From: Amanita rubescens
Taxonomy: Eukaryota; Basidiomycota; Agaricomycetes; Agaricales; Amanitaceae
DNA: 64,000 bases
Assembly (NCBI GenBank): GCA_015039365.1
Contig: WION01000034.1
Span: forward strand, 248,001 to 312,000
Direction of reading: 5' to 3'
Position 1 is the stretch's first letter; the number at the start of each line of letters is the position of its first letter. The notes beneath the pieces were generated by a model that was not told where the DNA came from, ran no database searches, and saw only the letters and a list, made by a program, of their open reading frames with translations. The translations under genes were made by a program, and so were the position numbers. Shown here in pieces: positions 1,725 to 64,000 of this stretch.

Positions 1725-4054
1725 AAGCTGTTGGCCCAAGGAAAAATATGTGATGAGACTGCCTTTCACAGCATGTGCAATGTCACTCACAAGCTGTTGG
1801 TCATATCAAAAGATCTGATGAGAGATCTTTAACAAAATATGCAATGTCACCCACAGGCTATTGGTTCATAGGAAAAGTTCTGATGAGATGTCCTTTCACA
1901 AAATATGCAATGCTATTCACTTGCTATTGGTCACAGGAAAAGATATGATGAGACTCTACAAAATGTGCAATGTCACTCACAAGCTGTTGATCATAGGAAA
2001 AGATGTGGAGAGACTGCCTTTCAAAAGAAAGTGCAATGTCACTCACAAACTGTTGGCCATAGGAAAGGGTGTGAAGAGACTGCCTTTCACAAAATGTGCA
2101 ATGTCACCCACTTGCTGTCATAGAAAAATTGTGATGAGTCTGCCTTTCACCAAATGTGCAATTCCACTCACTGACTGTCAGTTGTAGGAAAAGATGTGAT
2201 GAGACTGCCTTTCACAAATCAGGCAATGGGACTCACAAACTGTTGGTTGTAGGAAAAGATGTGATGAGACTGCTTTTCACAAGATATGCAATGTCACTCA
2301 CTCGCTGTTGGTATAGAAAAAGATTGTGAGACTGCCATTCACAAAACATGCAATGTCACTCACTTCCTGTTGGTCATAGTAGGAAGAGATATGATGGGAC
2401 TTCCTTTCACAAGATGTGCAGTGTTACTCACTTGCTGGAGGTCATAGGAAGAGATGCAAGGAGACTGCCATTTACAACATGTGCAATGTCACTTACAATC
2501 TGTTGGTCACAGGGGAAGATGTGATGAGACTGCCTTTCACAAAACATGCAATGTCACTCACATCCTGTTGGTCATAGGAAAGGATGTGATGAGACTGCCT
2601 ATCACAAAACACACAATGATGTCACTCACTGGCTGTTGGATATCATAGGAAAAAATGTGATGGGACTGCATTGCACAAAATGTGCAGTGTCACTCACTCC
2701 CTGTTGGTCATAGAAAAAGATCTGACAAGACCATTTTTCATAAAGTGTGCAATGTCACTCACTGACTGTTGGTTACCAAAAAAAATGCAATAAGACAGTG
2801 AGACTGCAATTCACAAAATGTGCAATGTCACCCACTCCCTGTTGGTCAGAGGAAAAGGTGCAATGAGACTGCCTTTCACATCATGTGTGGTGTCACTCAC
2901 TCGCTGTTGGTCATAGGAAAAGATGTGATTAGACTGCCTTTCACAAAATGTGCAATGTCACTGACATACTGTTGATTACAAAAAAGAATGTGATGAGACT
3001 GCCTTTGACAAAATGTGCAATGTCACTCACAAGCTGTTGGTCATATGAAAGGATGTGAAGAGACTGCCTTTCACAAAATGTGCAATGTCACTCACATGCT
3101 GTTCATCATAGGAAAAGATGTGATGAGACTCCCTTTGATAAAATGTGCAATTTCACTCACAAGCTGTTGGTCATAGGAACAGATGTGATAAGATTGCCTT
3201 TCATAAATTGTTACTCACTCCCTGTTGAACATGGGAAAAGACTCAGATGTGATGAGACTGCCTTTCACAAAACATGCAATGGCACTCACATCCTATTGGT
3301 CATAGGAAAAAATGTGATAAGACTCATTCACAAAATGTGTAATGTCACTCACAAACTGGTAGTTGCAGGAAAAGATGTAATCAGACTGCATTTCACATAA
3401 TGTGTAATGTCACTGACTTGCTGATGGTCATAGGAAAAGATGTGGTGTGACTGCTTTCGCAAAATGTTTAAAGTACAGTAACTCACTTGCTGTTGGTCAT
3501 AGGAAAAGATGTGATGAGACTGTCTTTCACAAATTGTACAATGTTGCTCACTGGCTGTTGGTCAGATTGATGAGACTGACTTTCACAACAGTTGCAATGT
3601 CACTCACTTGCTGTTGGTCATAGGAAAAGTGAGACCGCCTTTTCCATAATGTGCAATGCCACTCACAGGCTGATGGTCATGTGAGAACATGAAATAAGAC
3701 TATCATTCACAAATTGTGCAATGTCACTGACATACTATTGGTCATAGGAAGATGTGATGAGACTGCCTTTCACAAGATGTGCAATATCACTCACTTGCTG
3801 TTCATAGGAAACAATGTGATGAGACTGCCTTTCACAAGAAGCACAATGCCACTCACAAGCTGTTGGCCATAGGAAAAAAGGTGAAAAGACCACCATTCAC
3901 AAAATGTGCAGTGTCACTCACTTGCTGTTGGTTATAGGAAAAGACATGATGAGGATGCCTTTCACAAAATGTGCAATGTCACTTGCTGGCTATTGGTCAT
4001 AGGAAAAGATGTGATAAGACTGCCTTTAACAGAATGTGCAATCTCACTCACATC
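1725..4054 (-). repeat. Microexon array A: 37 tandem units of intron plus one 3-nt exon
   Basis: There are 37 units with a mean spacing near 65 bp. On the plus strand each shows a complement of a splice donor (ACTCAC, or ACTTAC, ACTGAC, ACCCAC and one ACTTGC), three variable bases, then CTGTTGGTCATAGG-like sequence. On the minus strand this is ...CAACAG, a codon, then GTGAGTGAC. Exons run from 4054-4052 (GAT) to 1727-1725 (CTT), always exactly 3 nt. Decoded residues are Q 8, L 6, P 5, D/F/G 3 each, Y/R/S 2 each, H/I/E 1 each; no K and no stops. The array stops abruptly at an SDR fragment at about 4060, so its 5' part is missing. Confidence 0.8.
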
Positions 4055-4059
4055 CTGTT

Positions 4060-4520
4060 GTAAGACTCTTGCTGTGGGTAATCTGGGTGCTGGGAGAATG
4101 GTGCCATACATGCTTGACTATGATATGAGCAAGGAGAAGAGGATATTTGGATTGAAGTACAAGATGATGGAGGAAATATCAAAGGATATGTTGGTAGACT
4201 TTGATTGCAGAGGCTGGTCAGTGTCCAACCGAAATATTTCTGCATTGTTATCAGCATCACCCCAAGTGAATTTATGTACAGGCTGCAGGCCTGTCATAGA
4301 ATACAATATTTGTACCATGTACATATATGTATCTCATGAGCTGTGACAGATTTGAACTGGTGCAATGAAAGTCTAGTAGAGCCTTTTGGAAATATGTAAA
4401 GCAAAATCAATACAATGTATTTTAAGAACTTATACACAGACAGACTCAATTCTTGCCCTTCCCCCAAATTAATTTTGCCCAAACTTATACCAAGGACTAT
4501 CTGTTGCCTTGAAATAACCA
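4060..4520 (+). pseudogene. SDR 3' fragment embedded between the two microexon arrays
   Basis: It starts inside the last SDR exon (GKTLAVGNLGAGRMVPYMLD), directly joined to repeat sequence (ctgttg/taagactc). It continues through LVDFDCRGWSVSN and the 3' flank also seen after position 405. The upstream SDR exons are absent. The stop seen in the copy at 405 is changed here to CGA, so the frame runs on. It marks the breakpoint of the segmental duplication. Confidence 0.75.
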
Positions 4521-5345
4521 AAGGAAGGTACTCGAGAAGTCATCTATGTACAAATAAATATGCAGCCAATCCAAAGGTAATGCAGTCAATAAATCACCTG
4601 ATATTGTCCTGGGTGTTTCACCCTGCCATAAAGTGTTCATAAATAGTGCATTACTAGATAAAGTACCTACCATCAATGCAAGTCACCTGCTCATAGAACA
4701 ATGAGACCAAATCTTGATGACCAGAGTGCAATAAGTCAGGAGTAATGTCAGTCTTGAGCTTCTGATCATAGCCTTTTTTCTTGTATTGATGCATGGCTTC
4801 TGTGACTGATTGCAAGAATGGTTTATTGATCCAAAAGGATAGCTTTGCAATGATGATAATTGCTTGAAGGTTTAAGCATAAATGGAGTAAATGAAAAGGA
4901 ATTATTTACAAAGGAGGACCTGGCAATTGGTAGGCTTATTACAATGGCATCAGTTGTGTGCTACCCACAAAAAAAAATACCTTGACTGAAAAATTCTTTT
5001 GCTTGCCTCCAAACAAGGAGAAAAGTTCAAGCTATTCATGAGATAGAATCCAATGTAAGATCAATGGTCAGACCTACACACTAGCATGCAAAATGATATG
5101 AAAATGTCAATACTGTATGAACCAACATCACTCACCTGGAAATCAAAGAAAGTGATATAAGTTAGGGGAATGGTCACATGAGATGCAAGTAGGTGACCTG
5201 AAATCAAAACTTACAATCTATGATGATAACAATATGAAAGGCTTGGAAATGGGCAACATCCTCACTTTCTGATTTACAAAGGATATAATCATATATCAAA
5301 CATTCATGAATCAGAGTATGAGGTCAGAGAATTGGGAATCTCACT
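4061..5345. repeat. Segmental duplication, copy 2
   Basis: Partner of 229-1690, with the same order and orientation of the SDR end and GTPase C-terminal exons. Several small indels separate the copies, for example a shorter ELFSLFG exon here (17 codons). Confidence 0.8.
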
Positions 5346-8300
5346 CACTTGCTGTGGGTCAAAGGAAAAAATGTCATGAGACTCCCTTTCACAAAATATT
5401 CAATGTCACTCACAAACTGTTGGCCATAGGAAAGGATGTGATGAGGCTGCCTTTCACAATATGTTCAATGTCACACACTTTCTGTTGGTCACAATATGAT
5501 GCCATGCCTTCTACAAAGTGGGCAAGGTCACTCACTTTCTGTTGGTCATAGGATAGGATGTGATGAGACTGCCTATCACAAAATGTGCAATGTCACACAC
5601 TTTCTGTTGGTCCGGAAAAAATGTGATGAGACTGCCTTTCACAAAATGTGCAAAGTCACTCACAACCTGTTGGTCATGGGAAAGGATGATGAGACTGCCT
5701 TTCACAAAACATGCAATGTCACTCACCTCCTGTCAGTCATAGGGAAAGATGTAATGAGACTACTTGTTACAAGAAGTACAATGGCACTGACTTCCTGTTG
5801 GTCAGAGCAAAAGATGTAATGAGATCATTGCCTTTCATGAAATGTGCAGCCCACTCACTTGCTATTAGTCATAGGAGAAAATGTGGTGAATTGCCTTTCA
5901 AAAAAGTGTGAAATGTGACTCACTTGCTGTTGGTCATGGAAAAAGAAGGGATGAGACTGCATTTCACAACACTTGTAACACCACTCACTTTCTGTTGGTC
6001 ATTGGAAATGATCTGATGAGACTGTGGCAGGTCATAAAATGTGCAATGTCACTCACTTGCTGATGGTCATAGGAAAAGAAATGATGAGATTGCTTTTCAC
6101 AAAATGGGAAATGTTACTCACAACCTGTTGGACATAGGGAAAGATGTGATGAAACTGCTTTCACAAAATGTGCAATGTCACTTGCCCACTGTTGATCAGA
6201 GCAAAAATGTAATGAAACTGCATTTCACAACATGTGCAATGTCACCCACTTCCTGTTGGTCATAGGAAAAGACTGCCTTTCACAAAATAGGCAATGTAAC
6301 TTACATCCTATTAGTCATATGAATAGATGTGGTGAGACTGCTTTTCACAAGATGTGCAATGTCACTCACAAGCTGTTGACCATAGGAACAGTGACAAGAC
6401 AGCATTTCACAAAATGCACAACATCACTCACATACTTTAATCATATAAAAAGAAGTGATGAGACTACCTTTCAAGAAATGTGTAATGTCACTCACTTTCT
6501 GTTGGTCACAGCAAAAGATGTGATGAGACTGCTTTTTACAAAATGTGCAATGTCACCCACTTGCTGTTGGTCATGTGATAAGATTGCTTTTCCCAAAATG
6601 TGCAATGTCACTTACTTCCTGGTGGTCATAGGAAAACATGTGAGGATGCTGCCTTCCATAAAGTGTGAATGTCACTCACATGCTGTCAGTAATATGATGA
6701 GACTGCCTTTCACAAAATGTGCAATGTCATTCACATACTGCCATTGGTCATAGGAAAAGATGTTGCAAGATTGCCCTACACAAAATGTGCAATGTGACTC
6801 ACATCCTGTTGGTCATAAGACAAGATTTGATGATGAGAATTCCTTTCATGAAGTCTGTAAGTGACTCACAAGCTATTGGTCATAGGAATTGAAGATGTGA
6901 TGAGAGTGCACAAAATGTGCAATGCCACTTACTGGCTGTTGATTATAGGAAGATATTTAATGAGGCAGTGTCTCACAAAATATGTATGTCACGCAATGTT
7001 ACTCACTTTCTGTTGGCCATATGAAAAGATTTGATGAGACTACTGTTCATAAACTGTGCAATGTTGCTCACTCCCTGTTGGTCATAGGAAATGACTTTTT
7101 CACAAATGTGTGATGTCACTCACTCCCTGATAGGAAATGACCTGAGGAGACTGCCTTTCACAAAAGGTGCAATGCCACCTACACGCTGCCATTCATGGTC
7201 ATAGGAGAAGATGTGATGAGACTATTTCACAAATGTATGGTGTCACTCACATTCTGTTGGTCATAGGAAAGGATCTTATGACACTGCCTTTCACAAAATC
7301 TGCAATGTTTCTTACAAACTGTTGGTCATAGGAAAACATACAGTACAATGAGACCATGTGTGACAAAATGTACATATAATGTCACTCACCCACTGTTGAT
7401 CACAGGAAAAGTTGTGATGAGCTGACTTTCACAAAGTCTGCAATGTCACTCACAAACTGTTGGTTGTAGAAAAGATATGATGAGACTGCCTTTCACAAAA
7501 TGTGCAATGTCACTCACATTCTGTTAGACATAGGAAAAGAAATGATGAGACTGCCTGTCACAATTGTGCAGTGTCACTCACTTTCTGTCGGCCCTAGGAA
7601 AAGAAGATCAGATTGCATTTCACAAAATGTTCAATAATTATATCACTCACAAACTATTGGTCACAGGAAAGGAGGTGATGAGACTGACTTTCACAACATG
7701 GGCAATGCCACTCACAAACTATTGGTCATAGGAAAAGATGTGATTTCACAACATGTGCAACATCACTCACTTTCTGTTGGTTATAAGAACAGATGCAGTG
7801 ATTCTGGCTTTCATGACATGTCCCAGTGTACTCACTTCCTTTTGGTCATAGGAAAGATGTGATACTAAGACTGCCTTTCAAAAAACGTGCATTGGAGGTC
7901 ACTCACTTCCTGTTGGTCATAGGAAAAGATGCAGTGAGACTGTCTTTCACCAAATTTGCAATGTCACTTACTTCCTGTTTGTCATAGACAAAATGTGACA
8001 AAGCTGCCTTTCACAAAATGTACAATGTTGCTCACTTGCTGTTGGTCATATGAAATGATGAGATGAGACTGCCATTCATAAAATGTGCAATATAACTCAC
8101 TTCCTGTTAGTCATAGGAAAAGATGTGATGAGACTGCCTTTCACAAATTGTGCAATGTCACTCACATTCTGTTGGTCATATGAACAGATGTGGTGATGCC
8201 TGTCACAACATGTTACTTACAACCTGTTGGTCATAGGAAAAGATCTGGTGAAACTTCCACAACATATGTATTGTCACTCACTTGCTGTTGGTCATAGAAA

Positions 8301-11300
8301 ATGAATTGATGAGACTACCTTGCACATTTTGTGCAATATCACTCACTTTCTGTTGGTCATAGGAAATAATCTCATGAGACTGCCTTTCACAAAATGTGCA
8401 ATGCCACTTACTTGCTGTTGGTCATAGGAAAAGATGTAATGAGACTGCTTTCACAAAATGTGCAATGTCACTCACAAGCTGTTGGTCATAGAAAGGATGT
8501 GATGGGACTGTTTTTCACAAATATGTGGTGTACTTGCATTCTGTTGGTCATAGGAAAAAAATGTGATGGAGCTGCCTTTCACAAAATGTGCACTGTCACT
8601 CACTTGCTGTTGGTCATATGAAAACATGTGATGAGACTGCTTTGCAAAATGTGCAATGTTACTTACAAACTGTTGGTCAAAGGATGTGATGAGACTACCT
8701 TTCACAAACATGTGCTGTCACTCACATTCTGTTGGACAACATGTGATAAGACTGCCTTCCTAGCATTGTGCAATATCACTCACTTGCTGTTGGTCATAGG
8801 AAAGCATGTGTTGAGACTGTCTTTCACAACATGTGCACCATTGCTCACTTCCTTTTGGCCAAAGGAACAGATTCAGTGTCACCACCTTTCACAACATGTG
8901 CAATGTTACTCACATTCTGTTGGTAATAGGAAAAGATGTGATAACACTACCATTCATAAAATGTACAATATCACTTACTTCCTGTTGGTCATAAGAAAAA
9001 ATGTGATTAGACTGCCTTTCACAAAATGTACAATGTCAAGGCTCACTTGCTGTTGGCCATAGGAAAATATGTAATGGCACTGCCTTGACACATTGTGTAA
9101 TGTCACTCACTTGCTGTTGGAACTGGTCATAGGAATAAAAGTGATAAGATTGCCTTTCACAAAATGGGCAATGTTACTCACAACCTGTTGGTCATAAGGC
9201 AAAATATAATGAGGCTGCATTCACAAATGTGTGGTTTTACTTGCATTCTGTTGGTCATGGAAATAATGTAATGAGAACCTTTCACAACATTTGCAATTTC
9301 ACTCACTTCCTGTTGGTCAGTGATGAGACTGCCTTTCTCAAAATGTACAAAGTCACTCACAAGCTGTTGGTCATAGGAAAAAAGTGGTAATTCAGCCTAT
9401 CATAAAATATATAGTCACTGACTTGCTGTTTGTCATATGATGAGAGTGACTTTTACAAAACATGCAATGTCACTCACAAGCTGTTGGTCATAGGAAATGA
9501 TCTGATGAGATTGCCTTCCACAAAATGAGCAATGTCACTTGCAATCTGTTGGACATCAAAACAGAAGTGATGAGACTGCCTTTCACAAAATGTGCAATAT
9601 CACTCACATCCTGTTGATTGTGGGAAATGATCTGATGGGACTGCCTTTCACAAAATGTACAATGCCACTCACAAGCTGTTGGTCATGGGAAAAGATGTGA
9701 TGAGACTGCCTTTCACAAAATATTCAATATTACTCACTCTCTGTTGTTCATAGGAAAAAATGTGATGAGATAGGCTTTCACAAAATGTGCAATGCCACTC
9801 ACCTTCTGTTGGTCATATGAAAAGATGTGATGAGACTGCCTTTCACAAACTCTGTAATGTCACTCACTTTCTGTTGGCCATAGGAAACATGTGATGAGAC
9901 TGCCTTTCACAAACTCTGTAATGTCACTCACTTTCTGTTGGTCATAGGAAAGATGTGATGAGACTGCCTTGATATGTCACTCACTTGCTGCTGGTCATAG
10001 GAAAAGATGTGATGAGATTGCCTTACGAATGGGTAATGTCACTCACAACCTGTTGGACATAGGGAAAGATGTGATGAGACTGCTTTCACAAATGGGTAGT
10101 GTCACTTGCTTTCTATTGGTCATAAGAAAAAATGTGATTAAGCTGCCTTTTACAACATGTGCAATGTCACTCACTTGCTGTTCATCATATGAAAAAATGT
10201 GATGAGACTCCTTTTTTGCCACTCACTTTCTGTTGGTCATATGAAAGGAAGTGATGAGACTTCATGTCACAAAATGTGCAATGTCACTCACAACCTGTTG
10301 GTCATAGGAAAAGAAGTGATGAGATTGCATTTCACACAGTGGGCAATGTTACTCACAAGCTATTGGTCATAGGGACAGATGTGAGACTGCCTTTCACAAA
10401 ATGTGCAGTGTCACTCACTTGCTGTTGGCCATATGAAAACATGTGATGAGACTGCTTTCACCAATGTGTGGTATCATTCACATTCTGTTGGTCACAGGAA
10501 AAATGTGATAAGACAGCCTTTCAAACATTGGGCAATGTCACTGACAAGCTGTTGGTCATAGGAAAGGACACATAGAGCAGCCTTTCAGGAATACTTGAAA
10601 TGTTACTCACATAGAACTGTTGGCCATTATAGGCAAACTTTTCATATGGTCATCTTTTGAATCATTAAACCAGTATGACATGATGCTAACCCCCTATGTT
10701 TATACAAAAAAATTCAGTGCTTTTCACAAAACAGCCAGTATCATTCACAATCTGTAGAGCAAAAGGATTGTCCAGATTGTCTTGTAGCAGATTGGCCTGC
10801 ATCACTTACTTCCTTTTAAAAGAATTAGGATAATAAAATTGAATGAAAGAAAACAATCCCACTGACTCTCTTTTAAAGTATTGCATATGATGAGCTCATA
10901 TCTCACAAAAATATTACATACATCCTGTTTGTTTTGTAATTGCTTGTGATGAATGTTTGAAAAGGAGACATATTTACTGTCTGTTATTTTGGGACTCATG
11001 TAATGTTTATGAGCAGACAGAAAGGAAATCTCACTGACTTTCTGTTATTAATCCAATGAGGCTTGTTGAGACCATCTTTCAGATAACATTATGTCACTAA
11101 CCTTCTATTGTTCATTGGGTTGTGTTTGATAAACTGCTGCACAATGAAGTTGCTTACTTTCTTTAAGCAGGTCAAATGTTGTGTGAGGCAGTCACACTGT
11201 ATCACTCACTCCCTGCCCATGAGAGACTGGGTTGACAAGTCTGCTTACAACGATTATAGATTAACTCACTTCCTATTGGTCATATGATGCACCATGGGAT

Positions 11301-12962
11301 CATTTACCCAAATCAAAATTGAGTCATGTCACTCACTTCCTGTAGATTATGGGACAACCCTGCTGATCACAAAAAAAAGCATTACTCACAAACTGTTGTC
11401 ATGAGACAATATATCAGATCTATCTTAGTTCAATGTCACTTACCCACTGATATCAATATCATTAGATCCTGCCACCAAGAATATGGCAACAACTAACCTG
11501 TGCTTCATTGGCCATCTGAACAATGACTAATCTTGTTTTCATGTGAAGGTATCAGAGTGTTACTTACCTCCTGATGCACTTGTTGCAAAGATTTATCATT
11601 CCAGACCAAGGTCACCTACCTTCCTGTCCACCTATTTCTGTGCATTCTTTCTATGGTGATATGTAGTTTGACAAAATACATACCCAGAAATGTGGAAATT
11701 TTGAAAAAACCATGAGAAAGCCATGATCCCATGTCCAATCTTTACATCCCAGAGCATGTCTGAGCAATGTCAATGTTAGTGAGTGACATTTTGAATATGA
11801 CATTCACCAAAGTGCAGATTTAATACAAAGACCAAGATTATTCATCTGTGTTGAAACAAACAGCTGATGTATGCTTTCATTGTCTATTGCATCAGCAGTT
11901 TGCTGAGTTAATTCAGCACAATTCTTCTCAGGTAAATCCATGTCTATGAAATGACATTACTACCATGTTTCAGGAAGAAATCTTGTCATTCTCACCTTCC
12001 AACTGCACATATGCCTTGGGAGGATATTTGGCATCCAAAACTTTAGGAAGATAAACTTTCTGAAAAGTGATTTCAGCAATTTCCCTGGCTCTCTCCCACT
12101 TATCTTCATCCTTTGAATCAGTCAAGTTGACAAATTCACTTGCTATTTGACCATCAAACTTAGTGAATATAACCACCAAAGGAACTGTAAAGGACTAGTC
12201 AGTGCACTGTGGTGAATTTTGTGGAAATTTGGCCAATGGAAAGCAGATAACAACAAGATAAGGACTTACCACTGCCTGTCCCTTTATTGAAGAATTCAAG
12301 TTCTGTGGGCAGAATGGGATGAGGGCTGTCCATGGGTATACAGTACCTACAGGAAGTCAGGTCAGACAGTACTGTAAAGGGAAAATGCAAAATACCAAAT
12401 TGCATGCAACTGATTCTTCAGCTCAGTTTCTGCAGACCTCTTTTCAATGAACTTCCAAGCAAGCTCCAATTCATCAGTTGAACCAGATTCAAAACCCATA
12501 GAGTCATGGAAGATAAAGTCACTTCCAGGGTATGTAATTTGATGCTCAATATCATGCATGCCTCTCTGTTATCCTTGATTGTGAATGGATACATCTATAC
12601 ATCATTATCTGGCTCACCTCAATTGATGGCACCAAATGAATCACAGACTGTTCAAGCTGATTACCTGCAAGAAACTTGACAGTCAAAGGAAGCACAAAGT
12701 CCAACTGACATACCATCCTTGTCATATATGCTGGTCTTTGTCCCCTTTGCTACACCACAAACCTTCTCAAGGATGGTTGTCTTGCCTGCATTAGCCCTTC
12801 CAATGACAAGGATGCGAAAGTGTGGGCATAGATAGCGTTCCCTGAGTACTTGAACATGTGTCTCATGATCATCTGCATCTGATATGTGTCAATCAGGGAT
12901 TAACAATGCTGAGACATATAAATTAGCCTACTCAAAGAAGGTGCACTAGTTGTAGCTGCCAT
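4654..12962 (-). CDS. P-loop GTPase gene with about 115 exons, 98 of them a microexon array
   Basis: The start MAATTSAPSL at 12962 is followed after an intron by ADDHETHVQVLRERYLCPHF. The G domain shows G1 GRANAGKTT, switch/G3 HDSMGFESG and G4 IFTKFD, then KYPPKAYVQLEG. Later exons are DMDLPEKNCAELTQQ to CIKSAL, then HALG to KFPHFW (11759-11684). After that come a 12-nt exon (V D R K, 11631-11620), GAG (E, 11570-11568), an 18-nt exon MANEAQ (11515-11498) and 98 microexons (11446-5349). The tail is K, I, C, LELFSLFGGKQKNFSVK (5031-4981), a 10-nt exon (4919-4910) and a last exon 4862-4654 ending DGRYFI and TAG. Expected mRNA is about 1.5 kb from 8.3 kb of DNA. One caveat: the junction CTTTG/A (intron 11808-11760) makes TGA in this copy, while the right copy reads CAA. 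The family is a P-loop GTPase common in agaricomycetes; its role is unknown. Confidence 0.7.
5349..11446 (-). repeat. Microexon array B: 98 tandem units of intron plus one codon
   Basis: Spacing is 49-77 bp, so introns are 46-75 nt. Exon starts on the minus strand run from TGG at 11446-11444 to CAA at 5351-5349; 97 exons are 3 nt and one is 6 nt (TTCTAT, 10616-10611). Donors are mostly GTGAGT, with GTAAGT, GTCAGT, GTTAGT, GTGGGT, GTAGGT, GTATGT, GTGTGT and some GCAAGT. Acceptors are CAG, TAG or AAG. A CTCAT/CTTAT branch-like motif and a TCTTTTCCT tract recur inside units. Decoded composition: K 17, Q 16, E 14, L 8, N 8, F 7, V 6, D 4, G 4, W 3, R 3, Y 2, I 2, T/P/H 1 each, plus the FY exon. 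No stop codon occurs. Units near the G domain (above 10.55 kb) have diverged introns; distal ones are much more uniform. Confidence 0.85.
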
Positions 12963-16929: not shown

Positions 16930-19900
16930 ATGATGTCAGCAGACCCACCTCAGGTAGCAGTGAATACTGGTATCTTTTCTGGATTCCAGAATGTCATTGT
17001 TATGGATGGCCAATTCATAGAGGTATTGCATTTCAGCATTATTACACCAGGATTTTGTCAATAATGAAGACTCATACATAGATGAACTACTATCTTTCAG
17101 ACCCTTCTGACATTGATCTACCTCCTTTACCTGCTATTAAACATTCTAGTACTTTCTTTACAGGTCAAGATAAGTACTTGCAGAAGCTTAAGGACCATTT
17201 TACCTCCCAAGATCAAGGACAAAGGAATTTTTTCCTATTGCATGGTTTAGGTGGGATTGGAAAGACACAGATTTGCCTTAAATTCATTGAAGAAAATACT
17301 GATTTGTGAGTATCTTATAATATTAATATGGCAATTTAAGTAACTGTCATTATAATGAACCTCTTCAAGGTTCTCTGACATATTCTGGATCAATGCTTCT
17401 TCAGAGAAAAGTGTTGAATTCATGCTCACACAAATATCCTCAACCTACTGTACTTCACCAGATGGTAGACCCTCAGCCAGATCTGCTCTTCATTGGATCT
17501 CTCAAAGGCACAATTTTTTGATGGTGTATGATGGAGCAGATGAACATTACTCAGTAGTTGAGAATTTCCTTCCACCAGGAAATGGAGGAAATGTTATGAT
17601 AACAAGTAGGAATATTGGGTTGAAGAAGTTTGCATTGAGCAAGAACTCAATGGAGATTCATGGGATGGAAGATGAGGATGCTATTTCTTTGCTTCTGAAG
17701 TCAGCCATGCTTGATGACACAGATGATGATATCTATAATCTGGCACAGAAGTTTGTGTCACAATTGGATGGAATACCCCTTGCCATTGACCAAGCAGGAG
17801 CATATATGCATTCCTGTGGTTGCAGCATTAATGACTATTTGGCATTGTACACAAGATACAAGCACAAATTAATGAGGGACACTCCTGGATTTGAGGGTGC
17901 CTCAGATTATGGAACATCTACATATGGGACATGGGACATTTCCATAAAAAAGATGGAGGATATGGCTGCAAAAAATAGTTCACAGGAATCTGTTGGAGCA
18001 CAAAGTGCCATCAAGCTCTTGAGGATTTTTGCTTTCCTGGATCATGCTAATATACCACAAGAATTATTCAAAAATGCTGCTGAGAATTACAAGGAAAGAA
18101 ATATTGAGGATCATGTGTATGTTTCATCATCATTGAGTTTACTGGATGATGAAACTGTGTTCTTGGGGGAAGACGGGGATTGGGACAAATTACATTTTCT
18201 GCATGGCATCCAGGTTTTACTCTCCTTCTCTTTAATCAGGAGTCATAATCAGTTGTATTCTATGCACCTACTAGTAAATACCTGGAGTAGGAACTGCATA
18301 CCAAAAACACAAGTAACTGATCAATATTACAGAGCAAGAGCACTTTTATCCTGTTCAATAGCCCTTGACTGGAATACTGATAATTATGAATTCTGTCAAT
18401 CACTCACACCACACATCAGGTCAAACTTTTTGCATGGATTGGAATTAAAGTTGAATGACAAGTACTATGATGATGAATATGCAAGATTTGCACTTGCATT
18501 TGATCGTGCTGGGAGCTGGGATGAACAAGAAAAATTGTTACATGTTGCAGTGCATCAAAGAAAAATGAAACTTGGATTGGACCACCCAGACACTCTTATT
18601 AGCATGGGAAATTTGGCAACAGCATACAGGAATCAGGGAAGGTGGGATGAGGCAGAGAAGCTTCAGATTGATGTAATGAATGCATTCAAAGTAAACTTTG
18701 GATCAGACCACCCAGGTACTCTCACCAGCATGTCCAATCTGACATCAACATACATAAATCAGGGAAGGTGGGATGAGGCAGAGAAGCATCAAATAGGTGT
18801 GATTGATGCATTCAAAACAAAGCTTGGATCAGATCACACGGACACATTCACCAGCATGGCCAATTTGGCATCAATATATAGGAATCAAGGGAAGTGGGAT
18901 GAGGCAGAGAAGCTTCAGATGGATGTAATAGATGGATTCAAAATAAACCTTGGATCAGACCACCCATCCACTCTCATCAGCATTGCCAATCTGGCATCAA
19001 CATACAGGAATCAGGGAAAGTGGGACAAGGCAGAGAAGCTTGAGATGGATGTGATGAATGCATTCAACACAAAGCTTGGATCAAACCACCCTTCCACACT
19101 CACAAGCATGGCCAATTTGGCATCAACATATAGGAGTCAGGGAAGGTGGGATGAGGCAGAGAAGCTTGAGATGGATGTGATGAATGCATTCAAAACAAAG
19201 TTTGGATCTGACCACCCAAACACTCTCAGTAGCATGGACAATTTGGCATCAACATACAGGAATAAGGGAAGGTGGGATGAGGCAGAGAAGCTTGAGGTGG
19301 ATGTGATGAATGCAAGAAAAACAAAGTTTCAATCAGTCCATCCTTCCATTCTCACCAGCATGTCCAATTTGGCATTAACATACAAGAACCAGGGAAAGTG
19401 GGATGAGGCAGAGAAGCTTCAGACAGATGTGATGGATGTGTTCAAAACAAAGTTTGGATCAGACCACCCTTCCACTCTCAGCAGCATGGTCAATTTGGCA
19501 TCAACATACAGGGATCAGGGTAGGTGGAATGAGGCAGAGAAGCTTCAGATAGAAGTGACAAATGCATTTAAAACAAAGCTTGGACCAGATCATCCATCCA
19601 CTCTTGGCAGCATGGCCAATTTGGCATCAACATACCAGAATCAGGGAAGGTGGGATGAAGCAGAGAAGCTTGAGATAGATGTGATGAACACATCCAAAAC
19701 AGAACTTGGATTAGACCACCCAGATACACTCACCAGCATAGCCAATTTGGCATCAACATATAGGAACCAGGGAAGGTGGGATGAGGCAGAAAAACTTCAG
19801 ATGGATGTGATGAATGCAAGAAAAATAAAGCTGGGCTCAGACCACCCTTCCAGTCTCAGCAGCATGGCTAATTTGGCATTAATATACTGGAATCAGGGAA

Positions 19901-21917
19901 TGTGGGATGAGGCAGAGAAGCTTCAGACAGATGTGATGGATGCAAGAAAAATAAAATTTGGATCAGACCACCAAGACACTCTTGCTGCCATGTCAAGTCT
20001 GGCATCAACATACAGGGGTCAGGGAAGGTGGGATGAGGCAGAAAAGCTTGAGATAGATGTGATGAGTGCATTCAAAACAAAGCTTGGATCAGACCACCCT
20101 TCCACTCTCAGCAGCATGGTCAATTTGGCATCAACATACTGGAATCAGGGAAGGTTGGATGAAGCAGAGAAGCTTCAGATAGATGCATTGAATGAGTTCA
20201 TAACAAAGTTTGGGTCAGACCACCCAGACACTCTCACCACCATGTCCAATCTGGCATCAACATACTGGAATCAGGGAAGCTGTGATAAGGCAGAGAAGCT
20301 TGAGGTGGATGTGATGAATGCAAGAAAAGTAAAGCTTGGATCAGACCATCCAGATACTCTTGTCAGCATGTCCAACTTGGCATTAACATACTTCAACCAG
20401 GAAAGGTGGGATGAAGCACAAAAGCTGCAGATAGAGGTGATGAATGCAAAAACAACAAAGCTTGGATCAGACCACCTAGACACTCTTACCACCATGTCCA
20501 ATCTGGCATCAACATACAAGAATCAGGGAAGGTGGGATGAGGCAGAAAAGCTTGAGATAGATGTGATGAATGAATTCAAAACAAAGTTTGGATCAGACCA
20601 CCCAGACACAGTCAGTAGTATGGCCACTTTGGCATCAACATATAGGAATCAGGAAAAGTGGGATGAGGCAGAGAAGCTTGAGACAGATGTGATGAATGTA
20701 TTCAAAACAGAGTTTGGATCAGACCACCCAGACACTCTCACCACTATGGCCAATCTGGCATCAACTTACTGGAATCAGGGAAGGTTGAGTGAGGCAGAGA
20801 TGCTTGAGACAAATGTGATGAATACAAGAAAAACAAAGCTTGGATCAGACCACCCAGACACTCTTCTCAGCATGTCTGATTTGGCATTAACTTACTTCAA
20901 CCAGGAAAGGTGGGATGAAGCACAGAAGCTGCAGCTAGAGGTGATGAATGTGAGAAAAACAAAGCTTGGATCAAACCATTCAGACACTCTTAGCAGCATG
21001 ACCAATTTGGCATCAACATACAAGATTCAGGGAAGGTGGGATGAGGCAGAGAAGCTTGAGATAGATGTGATGGATGGACTTAAAACAAAGTTTGGATCAG
21101 ACCACCCATACACTCTCACCACCATGGCCAATCTGGCATCAACATACAGGAACCAGGGAAGGTTGGATGAGGCAGAGAAGCTTCAGATGGATGTGATGAA
21201 TGCATTCAAAACAGAGTTTGGATCAGACCACCCAGACACTCTCACTGGCATGTCTAATTTGGCATCAACCTACAGGGATCAGGGAAGATGGGATGAGGCA
21301 GAGAAGCTTGAGACAGATGTGATGAATGCATTCAAAGCAAAGCTTGGACCAGACCACCCATCTACTCTTGCTAGTATGTCCAATTTGGCATTAATATATG
21401 TGAAGCAAGAAAGGTGGGATGAAGCACAGAAGCTGCCAATGGAGATGTTGAATGAAGAAGGGTTGAATGATGCAGAGGAACTGGAGTTGGATGTGATAAA
21501 TGCCAAAACAGTGAAGCCTGAATCAGGCCATCTGGATGCAACTGTCACCAGTATCACCAACCAAGCCCCTTCCAATCAAGTTCTTCTGACAGTTCAGCAA
21601 GATCATAACCAACATGAGAACATGGTAAACTAAGCAAGCTGACCTTCACTTATATCTAATAACTTCTTTTGCTTAGTCAAAGCCCCTTGACCAACTATCT
21701 GAGATCCAACAACCTGAAGAACAAGAGCCCAAAGTAGGTCGCATGCACATTCATTTTAATTGTCATACTAGATTTGTATTCTGTATAGATCCCCAGTACC
21801 TTTGACCATTTCAAAGAGGTTGCCCGTCAGGTACATGGGCAGGGTCAAGATTTGGTGCCCATGGTATTCTATCATAGCACACCAACTGCCAAGTTACTGA
21901 CCAGTTCTTTGATGTAG
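16930..21917 (+). CDS. STAND NTPase (NLR-like) with NB-ARC-type domain and 23 TPRs
   Basis: Exon 1 (16930-17022) starts MMSADPPQVAVNTGIF and ends in MDGQFIE. Exon 2 (17082-17305) carries the linker DIDLPPLPAI and Walker A GLGGIGKTQ. Exon 3 (from 17370) opens FSDIFWINASSEKS, with Walker B-like FLMVYDGAD, then a winged-helix-like region. From about 18570, 23 TPRs of 42 aa follow the pattern DHPDTLxSMxNLASTY, N, QGRWDEAEKL. Many are nearly identical, which suggests concerted evolution. The long frame stops at 21633. A spliced alternative (introns 21625-21676 and 21734-21788, both in phase) adds SKPLDQLSEIQQPEEQEPK and IPSTFDHFKEVARQVHG, ending at 21917. Fungal proteins of this architecture are thought to act in non-self recognition or cell death; that role is inferred. 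Confidence 0.85.
18571..21470 (+). repeat. 126-bp tandem coding repeat (TPR array)
   Basis: There are 23 in-frame 42-codon repeats inside the NLR-like gene, all in the same phase. Neighbouring units often differ at only a few positions. Varying positions include the residues after the helix A tryptophan/arginine and the AFKTK/ARKTK segment. Confidence 0.9.
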
Positions 21918-39520: not shown

Positions 39521-42500
39521 CTATTTAGGACCGTGAAATAACATGTAAGTATGAGAGTCTGTACAAGAATTGACGAGGAATGTATTACACTTATCCAGAA
39601 CGGTATTACTATTCCAGTCACGAGGTATTGTTCTTCCGGGGAGAGGTGATAGATGGATGCTTTGCCGGATTCTTGTCACAGGAATGATGCTTGCGACACG
39701 CGCATTATGTTGTAACATCCGAGACACTTTGTATAGCCCAGTTTTAGACTCGGGCTGTCTTTGGAACGGCGTGAACCACTCCACATATGCTAGATGTTGT
39801 GATGGGTGGTTGTGCTCGCCAAACAAGAGCTGGCATGCCCTTGGTTTGATACTGAATATGACACGGATCTGGGCGACGTAATACGCTAGTAGTGATGTGC
39901 AGGGCCCGGCTCGAAGCCGTCAAGCCCCGGCTGCCGAGCCCTTGAAGCCGAGCCCAAGCCGAGCCCTACTGAACGGCTCTGTAGGGCTCAGGGCTCGGCT
40001 TCCACTGGAGGAAGCCGTGAGCCGGGCCGTCGAGCCGCGGCTTTCCAGTGTCAACGAGGAGAGTCTCCTCAGTGATTGATGTGATTCCTGCATGTCGAAA
40101 TTTTGACGTACCTGGAAGGCTGGTGGTCATGTGATGATATGACGCACTACCGGGTTTATCGCCAGGTAGCACCTAGCGGCGAGGGGAGCTCTCACAAGCG
40201 AGATCTCACCATGGATGACGGCTACGAGAGCCGTTTTAGTCCCATTTGTGCACCGGTGATCTGAGGAGGTGAGAAGGAGGGGGACAACCGTGTAAGGGCG
40301 ATTACAGGTGAGTTCCTCATCTGTCACATTCCTTCTTTCATTCTTGCGCAACTGACTGACGGTGTGTGGCAGTAGAGACGAGCCCCAAACTTCTGCATCA
40401 CCACAAATTTCTGATACGCAAGAAATGCCTAACGCCATCATAGTGCCCCTGTCCCCAGCAGCGTCGTCGAGCGATGATGGCGCCACAGTCACAGGCTTCT
40501 GGCGCGCTTGCGGACACAACAGCTCAATTACCGCCCACCACGTCATCCGTCCACGAGCCTACAACGAATATCTACCCAACAGACCAACCTACAGCCAGCA
40601 GTATTCTATCTGAGACGTCAACAATCTTAGCTGGTGTATCCACAGACGAAGCTTTCGCGTCATCCTCATCGGAAGCAGTTACAACATCATCGGATTCATT
40701 GCAACCGTATCTTCCAACAACAGTCTCCTCTGAAACTCGAAACCTGAAGTCTATATGGTTATCGTTCTAGGCACAATCCCAGGTGTAGCATGTGTTACGG
40801 CGCTTTTTGCGTGGTGGGTTCAAATTCGTTCACACGCCAAACGCCGTCATCTATATGGCGACACGGATGTGCCTTGGGCATCATCAGAAAACGGTGACAG
40901 TGGCTTGGAAGAAGCTAGAGATATGACGCAAACTCGCTCTAACCTGGAGTTTATTGGACCGGGCGGCCCAGAAGATCTTGCGCAGGTTGAAGCATGGGAG
41001 CCGAGGGCTTGCAGGTCAATGAAGGTATGCCTAGGATGCCAATCACAATGACGGAAGGCCGGAACACGAGCGCGCGCTCGAGGAACTACTCAATCGAGAG
41101 TTTGCGCGCTCGTTCCCTGACTAGCACCTTCACAGCTTCCCAGGCACCAACTTCACGAACGAGGACGCAAGGTTTGTCGATACAAAAGACTGGCACTCGC
41201 AAGGCACTTGATCGAGCAGGTAAATCATCATTTCTGCTTCCTCGGCATTCGCTAACCGCATTTCATAGACGTGTTCACTCTTGGCTGGGCCAACGTGAAT
41301 AGGACAACTCTCGACTTCAGCGACTACCCCAGCAACCACCCCATCCCGACAAGGATCTCATCGCGCGGTCCCTCGTGATGTTCCCCCCGCCACCTGCAGA
41401 CCCCAGATGTCAACGTCAAACCTTCCCCACCCCAATTCCCCCACAGACGCTGCATGCCAAGCCCCGGCCCTATTCACCAAGCCCCGGCCTATACCAAGCC
41501 CCGGCCTGAGCCCAAGCCGGGCCTGAGCCGGCCGTGGGCCCTCTGCTGGGGCCCGGCCTGCATTTCCTACAGGCCCGAGCCGGGTCAAGCCGAGCCCAAG
41601 CCGGGGCTTTTGAGCCGAGCCGGGCCCTGCACATCACTATACGCTAGACACTATAATGTTAGTTGCTACGGTATTGACGTCGGACGCTCAACATACCTTG
41701 GAGTCCCGCTGCCTCGTCAACCTCACCAGAGTAAAAAAGACCGGTATCAAACCGGCCTGCTATCATCTGGCCTTTCCTATCCTTCTTGTGAGGCTGTATA
41801 TGGACTGAGTCCACCACAGGCCCATCGGCAGTATCTTCCCTGAACCGGATGTGGTGATATACCGAGATGTGGGTAAAAGGGATGTGAATGTCTAGAATGT
41901 CTTGCTCCAGACGAGCATGCGTAATTGGTTGATTTTTTTGTTGATGTCGCCAAAGAACAACAAACCTTGCAAAGGCCCCATAGAAAAACTCGGCCCCATA
42001 TTGAGTTATAACGTCTTCGACAGATATGGTCTGGACATTCGGAAATTTTGACATCTTGACGTATCGGCGGGGTGATAGAAGGGAGAATTGAGATGGGGTC
42101 TGTAGGTTAGAGTCGGGGCCACAATTTTGCCATGTAATATATTCTGTATGACGCTCAACCTTTTCATGCCGCTCAACGCAATTTGTCATTTGCGGAAGCT
42201 CGTCTCGCTTGTTTGTGGCGCGGTAGGGATCCTTAGCCAGGTTTCTATGTAGGCGCTCAGTGTACTGCGTATCATAGTTGTCTGTAGTTCCGAAAAGCCG
42301 CATAGAGTGGGCATAGTGTAAGCACGCATGCAACTTCGGAATATTGAACTTGTCGCGGATGCCTAGATCAACAAATATCTGTTTATTTTTATGGAAGGTG
42401 TCGAGAGCCTGATCCATAATGAAAAGATGTCGCGTCGAGATGATAGGAAGTTGAGCAATAAACATAAAGTCGAGAAGTGCGCGAACGGCCCGTAAAAGTC

Positions 42501-44429: not shown

Positions 44430-46350
44430 GCTTCAGTTGTTGAGCGTGAACTTAGCGGGACAGGTGAAGAGGAATGTGATGAATCGTACACGAAGACGGG
44501 CAACGGGTTCAAGACCGTAAAAATGCGAAAACAGGTCAAGCGCGTATGCGATAAATCGGGGTAGCTTCGGTTGGTGTATGAGATGGACTCCGGCAGCTTC
44601 GGTTGTTGAGTGTGAACTTAGCGTGACAGGTGAAGAGGAATGTGATGAATCGTACACTAAGACGGGCGACAAGTTCGAGACCGTAAAACAGATCGGACAG
44701 AAATTCCACGTTGAGTCGCTGTAAAAGAACGAGTCCAGTGAATACAACCGAAGGTTGTAGTGATGGGCGAAAGGATTGGATGGAAATCGCGCCTTGAGTC
44801 GCTGTAAAAGAACAAGTCCAGCGAGGAAATCGCGTCTTGAGTTGCTGTGAAGTCGCTGTAAAAGAACAAGTCCAGCGAATACGACCAAGAATTGTAGTTG
44901 TGGAGGGCGTAGGCAATGAACTGAGGTAGCTTCAGTTGTTGAGTGTGAGAGATGGACTGAGGCAGCTTCGGTTGTTGAGCGTGAACTTAGCGCGACAGGT
45001 GAAGAGGAATGTGATGAATCGTACACTAAGACGGCGACAAGTTCGAGACCGTAAAACAGATCGGATAGAAATTGACGAGTCCAGTGAATACGACCAAAGG
45101 TTGTAGTGATGGGCAAAAGAATTGGGTGGAAATCGCGCCTTGAGTCGCTGTAAAAGAACGAGTCCTTAGCGCGACAGGTGAAGAGGAATGTGATGAATCG
45201 TACACTAAGACGGGTGACAAGTTCGAGACCGTAAAACAGATCGGATAGAAATTGACGAGTCCAGTGAATACGACCGAAGGTTGTAGTGATGGGCAAAAGA
45301 ATTGGGCGGAAATCGCGCCTTGAGTCGCTGTAAAAGAACAAGTCCTTAGCGCGACAGGTGAAGAGGAATGTGATGAATCGTACACTAAGACGGGTGACAA
45401 GTTCGAGACCGTAAAACAGATCGGATAGAAATTGACGAGTCTAGTGAATACAACCGAAGGTTGTAGTGATGGGCAAAAGAATTGGGTGGAAATCGCGCCT
45501 TGAGTCGCTGTAAAAGAACAAGTCCTTAGCGCGACAGGTGAAGAGGAATGTGATGAATCGTACACTAAGACGGGTGACAAGTTCGAGACCGTAAAACAGA
45601 TCGGATAGAAATTGATGAGTCCAGTGAATACAACCAAAGGTTGTAGTGATGGGCAAAAGGATTAGACGGAAATCGCGCCTTGAGTCGCTGTAAAAGAACG
45701 AGTCCTTAGCGTGACAGGTGAAGAGGAATGTGATGAATCGTACACTAAGACGGGCGACAAGTTCGAGACCGTAAAACAGATCGGATAGAAATTGCACCCT
45801 GAGTCGCTGTAAAAGAACGAGTCCAGTGAATACAACCAAAGGTCGTAGTGATGGGCAAAAGGATTGGACGGAAATCGCGCCTTGAGTCGCTGTAAAAGAA
45901 CGAGTCCAGCGAGGAAATCGCGTCTTGAGTTACTGTAAAGTCGCTGTAAAAGAACGAGTCCAGCGAATACGACCAAGAATTGTGGTTTTTTGGGGGTGGA
46001 GGGCGTAGGCAATGAACTGAGGCCCTAGCTTCAGTTGTTGAGCGTGAACTTAGCGTGATAGGCGAAGAGGAATGTGATGAATCGTACACTAAGACGGGCG
46101 ACAAGTTCGAGACCGTAAAATAGATTGGGCGACAAGTTTGTGACTGTAAAACAGATCGGACAGAAATCGCGCCCTGAATTGCTGTAAAACGGATCGGGCG
46201 ACAAGTTTGTGACCGTAAAACAGATCGGACGGAAAACGCGCCCTGAGTTGCTGTAAAAGAACGAGTCCAGTGAATACAACTGAGGGTTGTAGTGATGGGC
46301 AAAAGGATCAGACGGAAATCGCGTCTTGAGTCGCTGTAAAGTGTGGGAAG
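44430..46350. repeat. Tandem repeat with 180-bp period next to the Plavaka gene
   Basis: The lines at 45121, 45301, 45481 and 45661 are almost the same at exact 180-bp spacing (aatcgcgccttgagtcgctg). Partial, rearranged units extend to both sides (44440-45120 and 45790-46340). It starts about 120 bp upstream of the transposase start codon. The many overlapping long frames here (up to 302 aa) are repeat artefacts. It may be the subterminal region of the Plavaka element. Confidence 0.8.
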
Positions 46351-61519: not shown

Positions 61520-64000
61520 ATGGGAAATACTGCTAGTGCACTGTCAGGTAATTCAATATTCATGTCTTGACATTGTCTATATTTGCCAATTGCTGCAGAT
61601 ATAGATGATGCACATGTTAAAATGCTCAGGGAACGATACCTATGCCCACACTTTCGCATCCTGGTCATTGGGAGGGCCAATTCTGGAAAGACAACTATCC
61701 TTGAGAAGGTCTGTGGTGTATTAAAGGGAACAAAGCCTATCATATATGACAAGAATGGTAAGTTAGCTGAGTTTTGTGCTTCCTCTAAATATTCAATTCC
61801 TTGTAGGTGAAATACTTGCTGAAACTCATTTCCTTGAGAAAGTTTCAAAAGGAATAAAGTCCATCATAAGTGACAAGAATGGTAAATTAGCTGGACTTGG
61901 TTCTTCCTCTAAGTATTCAGTTCCCCATAGGTAAAGAACTATTGGCTGCTGGGACTACCCATTTGGTCCCATCTATTGAGGTGAGTCAAATGATAATATA
62001 TGAATGTTTGAGTCATTCCTGTTCTTCTTGTTAACAGAGAGGCTCACATGATATTGAACATCAAATTACATACCCTGAGAGTAACTTCATTTTTCATGAC
62101 TCTGAGGGATTTGAATCTGGTTCTGCTAAGGAACTAGAGATTGTTTGGAAGTTTATTGAAACAAGATCTACAGAAACTGAGCTGAAAAATCAGTTGCATG
62201 CAATTTGGTATTTTGTTTTGGCCCTTTGGAGAACTGGCTGACCAAGCCCCATGAAGGTACTGCATACCCATGGACAGCTCTCATCCTATTTTACCTACAG
62301 AATTTGAATTCTTTAACAAGGGGACAGGCAGAGGTGGGTCAATTGACCAAGTATATTATCACACACACACACATTATGATTGGCTGTCACTTTAAAAAAA
62401 TAATATATCAAGCACCAAAGGTACTGACTAGCAAATTGTTCCTCATTACAGTTCCTTTGGTTGTTATCTTTACCAAATTTGATGCTCAAATGATCAAGGA
62501 ATTTGCCAACTTGGCTGATTCAGAAGATAAATATAGGTGGGAGAGGGCTAGGGAAAATGCTGAAAGTGCTTTTCAGACACTTTATCTTCCTAAAGTTTTG
62601 GATACCAAATATCCCCCAAAGGCATATCTCCGATTGGAAGGTGAGAATGATGAACATTGTTTCATCAAAACAGACATAATGTTGCTCAATATGTAGACAT
62701 GCATTTACCAGAGAAGAATTGTCCTGAGTTGACTCAGTGCACTGCTGATATAATTGATGATGCTAGCATGCATCAACTATTTGTGACAACACAGATGAAT
62801 AACCTTGATCTCTGCATTATGTCTGCAATTCAGTGAGCACTGAGGTTCACATTCACATATCTCTTTCTAACATTAGCCTTGTTCAGACATGTCATGAATA
62901 AAAACTATTTCATGTGGAGTGATGTTACTACAGTTTTTGCTAAATTTCCACATTTCTGGGTCAGCATCTTCTTCCAACATATCCATATGAGCATAAAAAT
63001 TAACTGCCAGCAGAAGGAGAGAGTGGTGGGTAGCTTTTATACAAAATGATAAATAGTTCACAAAATGCAACAGGAGGTAAGTAACACTTCAATGCTTTAC
63101 TGTGGAAGATAAATTATGTTTCAGATGTCTGGCAAACAATTGGATGAAATACCAGTGAGTTTTTATCATATCTTTGGTGGCAGGATCTGATGTTATGTAT
63201 ATGTAAATAACAGTTAGTATGTGACATTTAACTAGCATACGTCTGGTGTTTCTCTTATGAGAATAGTTTGTGAGTGATGTTTCCTTTGATTATTAGCATT
63301 CTTGTGTCATGATTAATAGGAAGTGAGTGGCAATGCTCAGTTTCTAGTGGATTGTTTCATGTTACATCATGCAACCAACAGGAAGTGAGTACATATGTAC
63401 ATATGTGTCTTTGTAAGCAGTCTCATCATTCCCATTTTCTAATCAACAGGAAGTGAGTGACACAACACTTTTTTTATCTTACATTCACATATCATGCCAC
63501 ATCAAATTTGCAAAAAGAAAGTGAGCAACCATGACACTTGTGTGGTTTGTCAAATGTGATTCAACCAACAACAGAAAGTTGGTAACAAGCTTTTATCTGA
63601 AAGAGTGACTTATTGTGAATTCATTAATAACAGGTGGCAGTAAGGGAATTGCCTTTATTTCTGCTGAAACAAGGTATCATGATGTAACTATTTTGAAATT
63701 AGCTTGTGAGTGGCAATGTACATTTTTGTGAAAGGCAATCTCAGTGCATCCTTTCCTACTATGACCAACAGGGAGTGAGTGACATTGCATGTTCTCATGA
63801 AAGATTAGTCTCATCACGTATTTTGCAGTATGACCAACAGGGAGTGAGTGAAATTGCATGTTCTTGTGAACAACAGTCTCATTACATCTTTTCCTATGAC
63901 CAACAGGGAGTGAGTGTCAATGTACACCTTTGTGAAAGACAGTCTCATTGCGTCTTCTTTTTTTATGACCAACAGCTTGTAAGTGACAATACACACTGTG
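61520..64000 (+). CDS. P-loop GTPase with microexon array, right copy (runs off the window)
   Basis: Exon 1 (61520-61547) encodes MGNTASALS, an N-myristoylation-like start. Exon 2 (61599-61757) has VKMLRERYLCPHFRILVIG and G1 GRANSGKTT. Part of this exon with its intron is duplicated (61825-61930). Then HDSEGFESGS (G3), a WYCIPMDSSHPILPTEFEFF junction, and VVIFTKFDAQ (G4), LPKVLDTKYPPKAYLRLEG. The exon DMHLPEKNCPELTQ to LCIMSAIQ follows, and HVMNKNYFMW to KFPHFW (62887-62959). After that come K E R V (63014-63025), GAG (63074-63076), MSGKQLDEIP (63125-63154) and one- or two-codon exons to the window edge. All phases agree and there is no stop. The C-terminus is outside the window. It is inverted relative to the left copy. 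Confidence 0.8.
63074..64000 (+). repeat. Microexon array, right copy (partial)
   Basis: Exons after MSGKQLDEIP are TTA 63214, TTT 63267, GAA 63320, GAA 63382, GAA 63450, AAA 63518, AAA 63575, GTGGCA 63634, CTT 63703, GGA 63772, GGA 63841, GGA 63907 and CTT 63976 (first bases). Each sits between an AG acceptor and a GTGAGT/GTATGT/GTAAGT/GTTGGT-type donor. The first introns are hardly alike. The later ones (from about 63705) converge on the same consensus as the left arrays in the same sense orientation. Confidence 0.85.

Follow-up and report, generated by a model that had tools for sequence, protein, structure and literature searches.

Predicted exon layout of the GTPase gene

The window analyzed here, 64,000 nucleotides of contig WION01000034.1 from Amanita rubescens (positions 248,001–312,000 of the forward strand; assembly GCA_015039365.1, 75.7 Mb), carries on its minus strand a gene for a predicted P-loop GTPase that starts at position 12962 and whose first eight exons make up the GTPase domain. 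These exons are followed by a run of repeat units of approximately 65 bp, each consisting of an intron and one codon. Judging from the sequence, the 98 units between 11446 and 5349 are likely real spliceosomal exons that would encode a loop of 99 residues, in a gene that is one member of a large A. rubescens family. The features of the gene are given below in window coordinates, where "chain" denotes a dynamic programming solution demanding an AG acceptor and a GT or GC donor, and "HMM" a profile hidden Markov model whose training set was 195 units carrying 3-nt exons. Paralogous loci, contigs, and proteins are designated L, C, and P, respectively.

12932–12962, minus: exon E1, with ATG start and GT donor, read from the sequence
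12714–12878, minus: exon E2, with the P-loop GRANAGKTT; bounded by AG and GT in the window copy, conserved in paralogs
12618–12664, minus: exon E3
12396–12565, minus: exon E4
12270–12346, minus: exon E5
11996–12184, minus: exon E6 (TKFDG)
11808–11943, minus: exon E7, which joined to E8 gives a TGA stop in the window copy
11684–11759, minus: exon E8, ending in KFPHFW
11620–11631, minus: 12-nt exon (VDRK), phase-0 reading with its start set by hand; homologous VDRA in P0002
11568–11570, minus: one-codon exon GAG (chain and HMM)
11498–11515, minus: 18-nt exon (MANEAQ), from the chain; MANKQLSEAQ in P0008
5349–11446, minus: main array, 98 exons and 97 introns (chain and HMM)
5266–5268, minus: one-codon exon AAA, 3' of the array (chain)
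5215–5217, minus: one-codon exon ATT, considered the final one ahead of the 51-nt exon (chain)
4981–5031, minus: 51-nt exon LELFSLFGGKQKNFSVK (LELFSLFGG..VK), phase 0; bounded by AG and GT in the window copy
4910–4919, minus: putative 10-nt exon GTCCTCCTTT, a hand reading that restores the phase for the following exon
4671–4862, minus: C-terminal exon containing IIIIAKLSFWINKPF, a hand reading with putative boundaries; resembles VLAAMNIIAKLSF of P0032

The chain's two extra small exons, at 5135 and 5080, were dropped because the chains of paralogs pass straight to the 51-nt exon. Of the 11 paralog loci in which this exon was detected, 10 have AG and GT at its two ends (the donor side reads GG in L019); in four of 15 loci, it was undetected. 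The acceptor of E2, when projected onto the paralogs, is a non-AG dinucleotide at eight of 13 loci. When the exon bounds of the window copy are projected onto the 13 fetched paralog loci in which E1 to E8 were all found, the GTPase ORF (297–298 amino acids) is open in every one of them. The A. rubescens protein P0009, compared by eye, agrees with the translation of the window gene from E4 to E7. The sole Pfam family in the joined family protein, taken without its variable loop, is MMR_HSR1 (E = 1.6e-4), and the related proteins P0032 and P0045 gave no Pfam family at 0.001. The joined proteins used as queries in the homolog, Pfam, and loop-region searches are composites, with the upstream part from L010 and parts of the middle and of the C-terminal half from other members.

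The array of one-codon units

The chain over the main array contains 97 3-nt exons and a single 6-nt exon (TTCTAT, 10616–10611); as the chain demands, the acceptors are AG in 98 of 98 cases, and the donors are GT in 93 and GC in five. The introns (n = 97) are 49 to 74 nt long, with a mean of 59.8 nt, and the exons encode 99 residues with zero stops. The original prediction had placed an array of codon-sized exons on this strand and in this interval, all of exactly 3 nt apart from one of 6 nt and together encoding 99 residues, and all of this holds. The run of short introns that it described is also there, with the measured range replacing the 46 to 75 nt that it gave. Three more one-codon exons, GAG at 11570, AAA at 5268, and ATT at 5217, lie beyond the interval that it covered.

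Four exon starts in the chain were reset by hand, three within the array and one in the preceding 12-nt exon. The HMM, built without any splice rule, gave 3 nt at all three hand-reset array exons, whereas the exons at 10980 and 10693 (two of 98) are absent from the HMM and come from the chain. Across both minus-strand arrays in the window, the second of which is described later, the HMM yielded 136 junction-spanning units (137 hits). These units show AG in 136 of 136 cases and GT in 130 plus GC in six, with neighboring intron columns conserved at 70 to 97%; 135 have a 3-nt exon and one has a 6-nt exon, and there is no stop.

An earlier dynamic programming run, in which exon length was free between 0 and 12 nt, returned 3 nt for 66 of 69 exons in the main array, of which this chain spanned only 70 introns, and for 37 of 37 in the second array. 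In control runs, the chains reached 6 and 20 introns for reversed sequence and 4 and 2 introns for the other strand. A first version of the free-length run, with longer motifs, had covered 29 and 30 introns.

Stop codons are avoided. With bases shuffled within codon positions, 6.8 stops would be expected in the window arrays, where 0 of 132 codons is a stop (P = 5e-5); the corresponding figures are 0 of 95 versus 4.6 for the main chain alone (P = 0.002) and 0 of 37 versus 1.9 for the second array alone (P = 0.09). Because the units are related by duplication, these and the other P values given here overstate independence, which counts against the exon reading. The GC donors of the main array all read GCAAGT (five of five); A at +3 occurs in 20 of the 89 window introns counted, including all five with a GC donor. 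Median intron identity in the window is 0.75.

Related arrays in the window and the genome

The window contains parts of two further members of the family, on which, as on the TGA at the E7/E8 junction and the many more arrays genome-wide, the original prediction was silent.

1725–4054, minus: second array, belonging to a 5'-truncated paralog and made up of 37 one-codon exons, all 37 of which came out at 3 nt when length was free; also in the HMM
1002–1406, minus: C-terminal remnants of the truncated copy, from its 51-nt and AKLSF exons
61860–64000, plus: third GTPase paralog, comprising the exons as far as FPHFW plus the beginning of its one-codon exons, and running off the window

The one-codon array of the third paralog lies at about 63100–64000 on the plus strand.

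Genome-wide, 1116 exact-flank junctions enclose 0 to 9 nt, and 1084 of these have a 3-nt exon. The others comprise 15 junctions of 4 to 9 nt (nine of 6 nt and six of 4 nt) and 17 of 0 to 2 nt, of which the small contig C749 holds 14 and C13 the other three. The 1084 exact 3-nt exons include a single stop (TGA, on contig C537). In a sample of 1075 codons, one stop was found versus 69 expected if the three bases were independent, and an earlier, overlapping sample of 778 codons had one versus 46 expected. GC donors with an exact flank read GCAAGT in nine cases versus zero with another base at +3.

Applied to 17 fetched loci, among which there are near-copies of one another, as well as to the window, the HMM found 1106 units, 1075 of them with a 3-nt exon; 1101 carry AG, 1096 GT, and 10 GC. 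Individual arrays have features of their own. L019, on contig C749, is a young array with 17 of 63 exons off length, which may reflect a decayed copy or assembly errors. L025 (contig C229) has four 6-nt exons (CAATCT three times and CAATAT once) among its 3-nt ones, and L024 (contig C8) has a spacing of 56 nt, not 65 nt, with codons that spell the coiled-coil-like KQLLQKLQKLQKYLEREQYLERY.

Exon E7 has at least 150 matches in the genome (150 of 150 scored candidates matched, out of 243), and the first one-codon exon with its flanks, at three or fewer mismatches, has 64 genomic copies; both counts probably include duplicate contigs. Among 12 clusters, drawn only from the first-listed of the 1084 junctions, 10 lie downstream of an E7 exon, one lies beside a C-terminal exon, and one adjoins neither.

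Other features of the window are unrelated to the arrays. On the plus strand, 17422–21633 holds a 1403-residue ORF that matches NB-ARC in part and then TPR_10 22 times, its repeats being about 80% alike according to Tandem Repeats Finder. By its sequence, this ORF looks like a shuffled-repeat NOD-like receptor, a few kilobases from the GTPase gene. A 180-bp tandem repeat in five copies occupies 44986–45907, and a 17-bp repeat lies at 41457–41529.

Introns and codons compared among paralogs

In 11 of 15 fetched loci, median intron identity is 98 to 100%, and the exons share 34 to 60% of their bases; in the remaining four, median intron identity is 0.81 to 0.95. The divergent paralog L028 (contig C650) is a different case, since identity between pairs of its introns is 0.515 versus 0.502 for shuffles. 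With exon length free between 1 and 33 nt and both ends fixed, 23 of its 30 exons are 3 nt long, the rest being four of 6 nt and one each of 4, 15, and 31 nt. Shuffled controls gave a chain in 41 of 100 cases, with 3-nt exons averaging 3% and numbering at most four. Tandem Repeats Finder detected no such array at L028. The layout thus survives the loss of intron similarity, as expected if the exons matter.

Near-identical copies allow the rates of change to be compared directly. L009 and L011 differ at nine of 156 exon positions and nine of 4686 intron positions (P = 1e-9), and exons change faster than introns in five of six near-identical pairs, although the large exon figure for L018 versus L020 may stem from faulty alignment where a unit is missing. 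Whole codons change (ATC to CGA between L009 and L013), and unit number varies as well, with L015 and L018 differing by at least one unit.

Chains were tried in 11 loci, and L014 and L023 gave none. At their heads, the arrays have codons that are conserved apart from small departures and read W F E. G K K. T D R E I; the middles vary. In eight of the nine loci with a chain, L018 being the exception and the two extra small exons of the window chain being disregarded, the array ends in the one-codon exons AAA and AAT or ATT.

Uninterrupted proteins of relatives and the predicted loop

The joined family protein, used as a query, returned 1242 proteins, of which 120 were listed. Of the NCBI family models examined, most stop at FPHFW, shortly past it, or earlier, and several proteins from short JGI contigs extend past it. 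Two of these, P0002 (386 amino acids, contig of 1446 nt) and P0008 (311 amino acids, contig of 1903 nt), run from FPHLW or FPHFW into VDRAVTNEQLSETKWFEKGKKESDREIEYDGG and VGRDEMANKQLSEAQWFEHGKKDTDKQIVYDGE, respectively. Compared with the one-codon exons at the head of L018, WFEQGKKETDREIKY, a sequence assembled from two readings together, P0002 (WFEKGKKESDREIEY) agrees in order at 12 of 15 residues and P0008 (WFEHGKKDTDKQIVY) at 10 of 15, scores that were matched by 0 of 5000 shuffles of codon order. The window's own 13 head codons agree with P0002 at 10 and with P0008 at nine. The comparison covered seven transcript-like proteins, and P0017, with 7 of 15 residues in agreement with L018, joins P0002 and P0008 in having P ≤ 0.0004. 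The homolog query itself contained such a head, and P0002 and P0008 share its GTPase domain over most of their length.

P0032 and P0043 are 89% identical overall, and their loops are quite different. In protein searches with the loop region, a composite query of the L010 type retrieved P0008 only, and the loop of P0002 retrieved only itself; the loop of P0008 had no six-frame match in the A. rubescens genome, a result that by itself is no proof of anything. Two proteins of more distant relatives, P0111 and P0113 (both from JGI), have loops of very low complexity, HHREEEEYHHHHHYLEYEEY and REELREELERNNEEEKEEKE, and similar arrays may therefore exist in other fungi.

A structure model of P0032, built from a 48-sequence alignment, has a mean predicted local distance difference test score (pLDDT) of 80.3 and consists of the GTPase domain, a low-pLDDT stretch, and a C-terminal helical domain. 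Residues 294–356 have pLDDT < 50 between confident domains (mostly > 80), so that the model predicts a disordered loop inserted between the GTPase and helical domains. Immunity-related GTPases (Irga6, GM4951, and Irgb10) gave the top structural matches, yet at 11% identity, with a Foldseek TM < 0.45 and a large root-mean-square deviation; other GTPases come within two Z units, nothing points to a shared function, and the PDB comparison excludes no family.

Weighing the explanations

The original prediction had read the units as phase-0 one-codon exons amid the ordinary exons of a P-loop GTPase gene. This reading is supported by the splice sites, the exactness of the 3-nt length, the rarity of stops, the layout of L028, and the order of the head codons in P0002 and P0008.

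A number of observations weigh against it. The TGA across the E7/E8 junction lies upstream of the array; the copy on C111 is without it, and the copy on C3 has the same stop. C111 matches the window array over 47 units, 46 of which carry the same codon, and C3 matches it over 11 units, each match breaking off apparently at insertions. In view of the stop and these break-offs, the window gene may be decaying. Among the proteins, P0032 and P0045 match the head codons weakly (P = 0.02–0.11), and P0043 and P0061 show no clear match (P = 0.09–0.66). We infer from uninterrupted ORFs on short contigs that the contigs of P0002 and P0008 are cDNA; their comparison with the array covered the head codons. 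P0079, a public model at the L028 locus, skips the array as one intron. Off-length HMM units number 31, including 17 of the 63 units in L019 and five of the 64 in L014. For L015 versus L020, exons are not faster than introns (0 of 153 versus 6 of 3246 positions). The head codons are not clearly more conserved than their own introns, with exon identities of 0.85 to 1.00 versus 0.84 to 0.95 for introns in ten pairs from five loci, which offer too few sites. Finally, the encoded loops have no general helical period, with P < 0.05 in two of 19 arrays (0.003 for L024 and 0.028 for the second array of the window) and P > 0.2 in the others.

The comparison with C111 and C3 relied on the BLAST-bounded part and the HMM lists alone; whole-length alignment of the window array to these copies is meaningless past the shared stretch, and the many exon differences that it produced were dropped. 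At L026 and L027, the match to the window array ends near 4203 and near 1951, respectively (in the orientation of the window gene), apparently at large insertions within the array.

The units in the window are as similar as those of a tandem repeat, skipping the whole array would keep the frame, and the paralog model P0079 does just that; one could therefore see in the array a satellite within one large intron that is removed whole, with 3-nt spacers that mean nothing. Such a satellite would have to lack stops almost completely, hold its spacers to exactly 3 nt, flank them with splice dinucleotides in 136 of 136 units, and match the head of P0002 and P0008 codon by codon in order, which makes this explanation highly unlikely. 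A satellite-only reading was rejected on L028, where the one-codon layout persists at an intron identity of 0.515 versus 0.502 in shuffled sequence, barely above what shuffling gives. A function of the repeat that is noncoding or resides on the plus strand is hardly credible in the face of the splice grammar on the minus strand, the avoidance of stops, and the match of codon order to proteins.

Introner-like elements, near-identical introns of a kind known from fungi according to the parts of the report consulted (PMC4457414), might have been inserted repeatedly between every two codons of an old continuous coding stretch, the codons being the old sequence. The near-identity of introns in the young arrays fits this idea; insertion leaves both phase 0 and the one-codon spacing unexplained, and 11 of the 12 clusters among the first-listed junctions adjoin exons of the GTPase family and one does not, a sample that shows no spread into unrelated genes. 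We consider this origin improbable. Somewhat less improbable, though still unlikely, is combinatorial alternative splicing, whereby different subsets of codons of one gene would be joined in different transcripts. Since every unit is in phase 0 and consists of one whole codon or two, every donor–acceptor pair within an array keeps the frame; against this, the rarity of stops fits constant inclusion equally well, and isoforms are not in evidence.

If the units are one-codon exons, as we favor, the introns would be spliced out one by one, each time leaving the upstream exon plus one codon ahead of the next donor; this would be the simplest route for a 3-nt exon. Each splice would add one whole codon, and any skipping would therefore keep the frame. 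Considering that young arrays combine near-identical introns with differing codons, and that near-identical loci can differ by whole codons, we infer an exchange of units between introns: unequal exchange and gene conversion would homogenize the introns and move single codons about, and selection would keep the codons varied and free of stops. By analogy with the fungal NOD-like receptors, which are diversified by shuffled repeats, the loop could be conjectured to be a recognition surface, for example, in self/non-self discrimination. A codon-cassette system, in which recombination between identical introns shuffles single codons across scores of GTPase copies and up to about 100 of them are spliced into an open frame to yield an evolving repertoire of hypervariable loops for self/non-self discrimination, perhaps with skipping of units as well, is a tentative proposal that we hold to be possible rather than probable.

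Comparison with known systems

A search of the literature on one-codon, 3-nt, and arrayed microexons and on related gene types found no such gene, judging by titles and abstracts. The micro-exon genes (MEGs) of Schistosoma have exons of several to a dozen codons and in most cases encode a signal peptide, whereas here there is one codon per exon, with near-identical introns, in a gene for a P-loop GTPase. The likeness to MEGs is in the many tiny exons, some of them skipped, and the variable product, as given in excerpts of one account (PMC4015677). Aphid bicycle and megacycle genes also have more than 100 microexons per gene; the 118 exons of megacycle encode 2092 residues, about 18 each, and one-codon exons are not mentioned in the sections of the paper used here (PMC9168663). 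Plant microexons of 1 to 15 nt show that exons down to 1 nt are spliced, yet those described in the relevant part of the source are single or paired and conserved, with no arrays of about 100 exons (PMC8831610).

Fungal NOD-like receptors resemble the present system in that repeats are shuffled within and between members and a few codons in each repeat are under diversifying selection, according to extracts of one study (PMC4986451). There, the repeat is coding (WD, TPR, or ANK), whereas here the repeat is the intron and the variable site the whole exon; the joined family protein, with MMR_HSR1 as its sole Pfam match, has none of the WD, TPR, or ANK repeats of STAND-type proteins. Fungal introner-like elements share the property of being near-identical spliceosomal introns in many copies, as the portions of the source drawn on state (PMC4457414), and they sit in unrelated genes, whereas the introns described here are in tandem, and 11 of the 12 clusters examined lie beside one gene family. 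A 2024 paper, in the part available to us, notes that no functional microexons had previously been described in filamentous fungi (PMC11121469). We rate the design of the gene as categorically new because its unit is a single codon; more cautiously, it may be called an extreme micro-exon gene.

Implications

Most of the public family models examined stop before or at the array, and such genes may therefore be missed elsewhere. If the one-codon exons are real, they would show the spliceosome at its limit, with as many as about 100 consecutive exons of 3 nt, whose acceptor and donor are probably too close to be bound simultaneously, and the order and accuracy of splicing would be directly testable. 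The unit of recombination in this family would then be one codon, the reading frame would be safe under gain, loss, and swapping of units, and A. rubescens would possess a new route to protein diversity.

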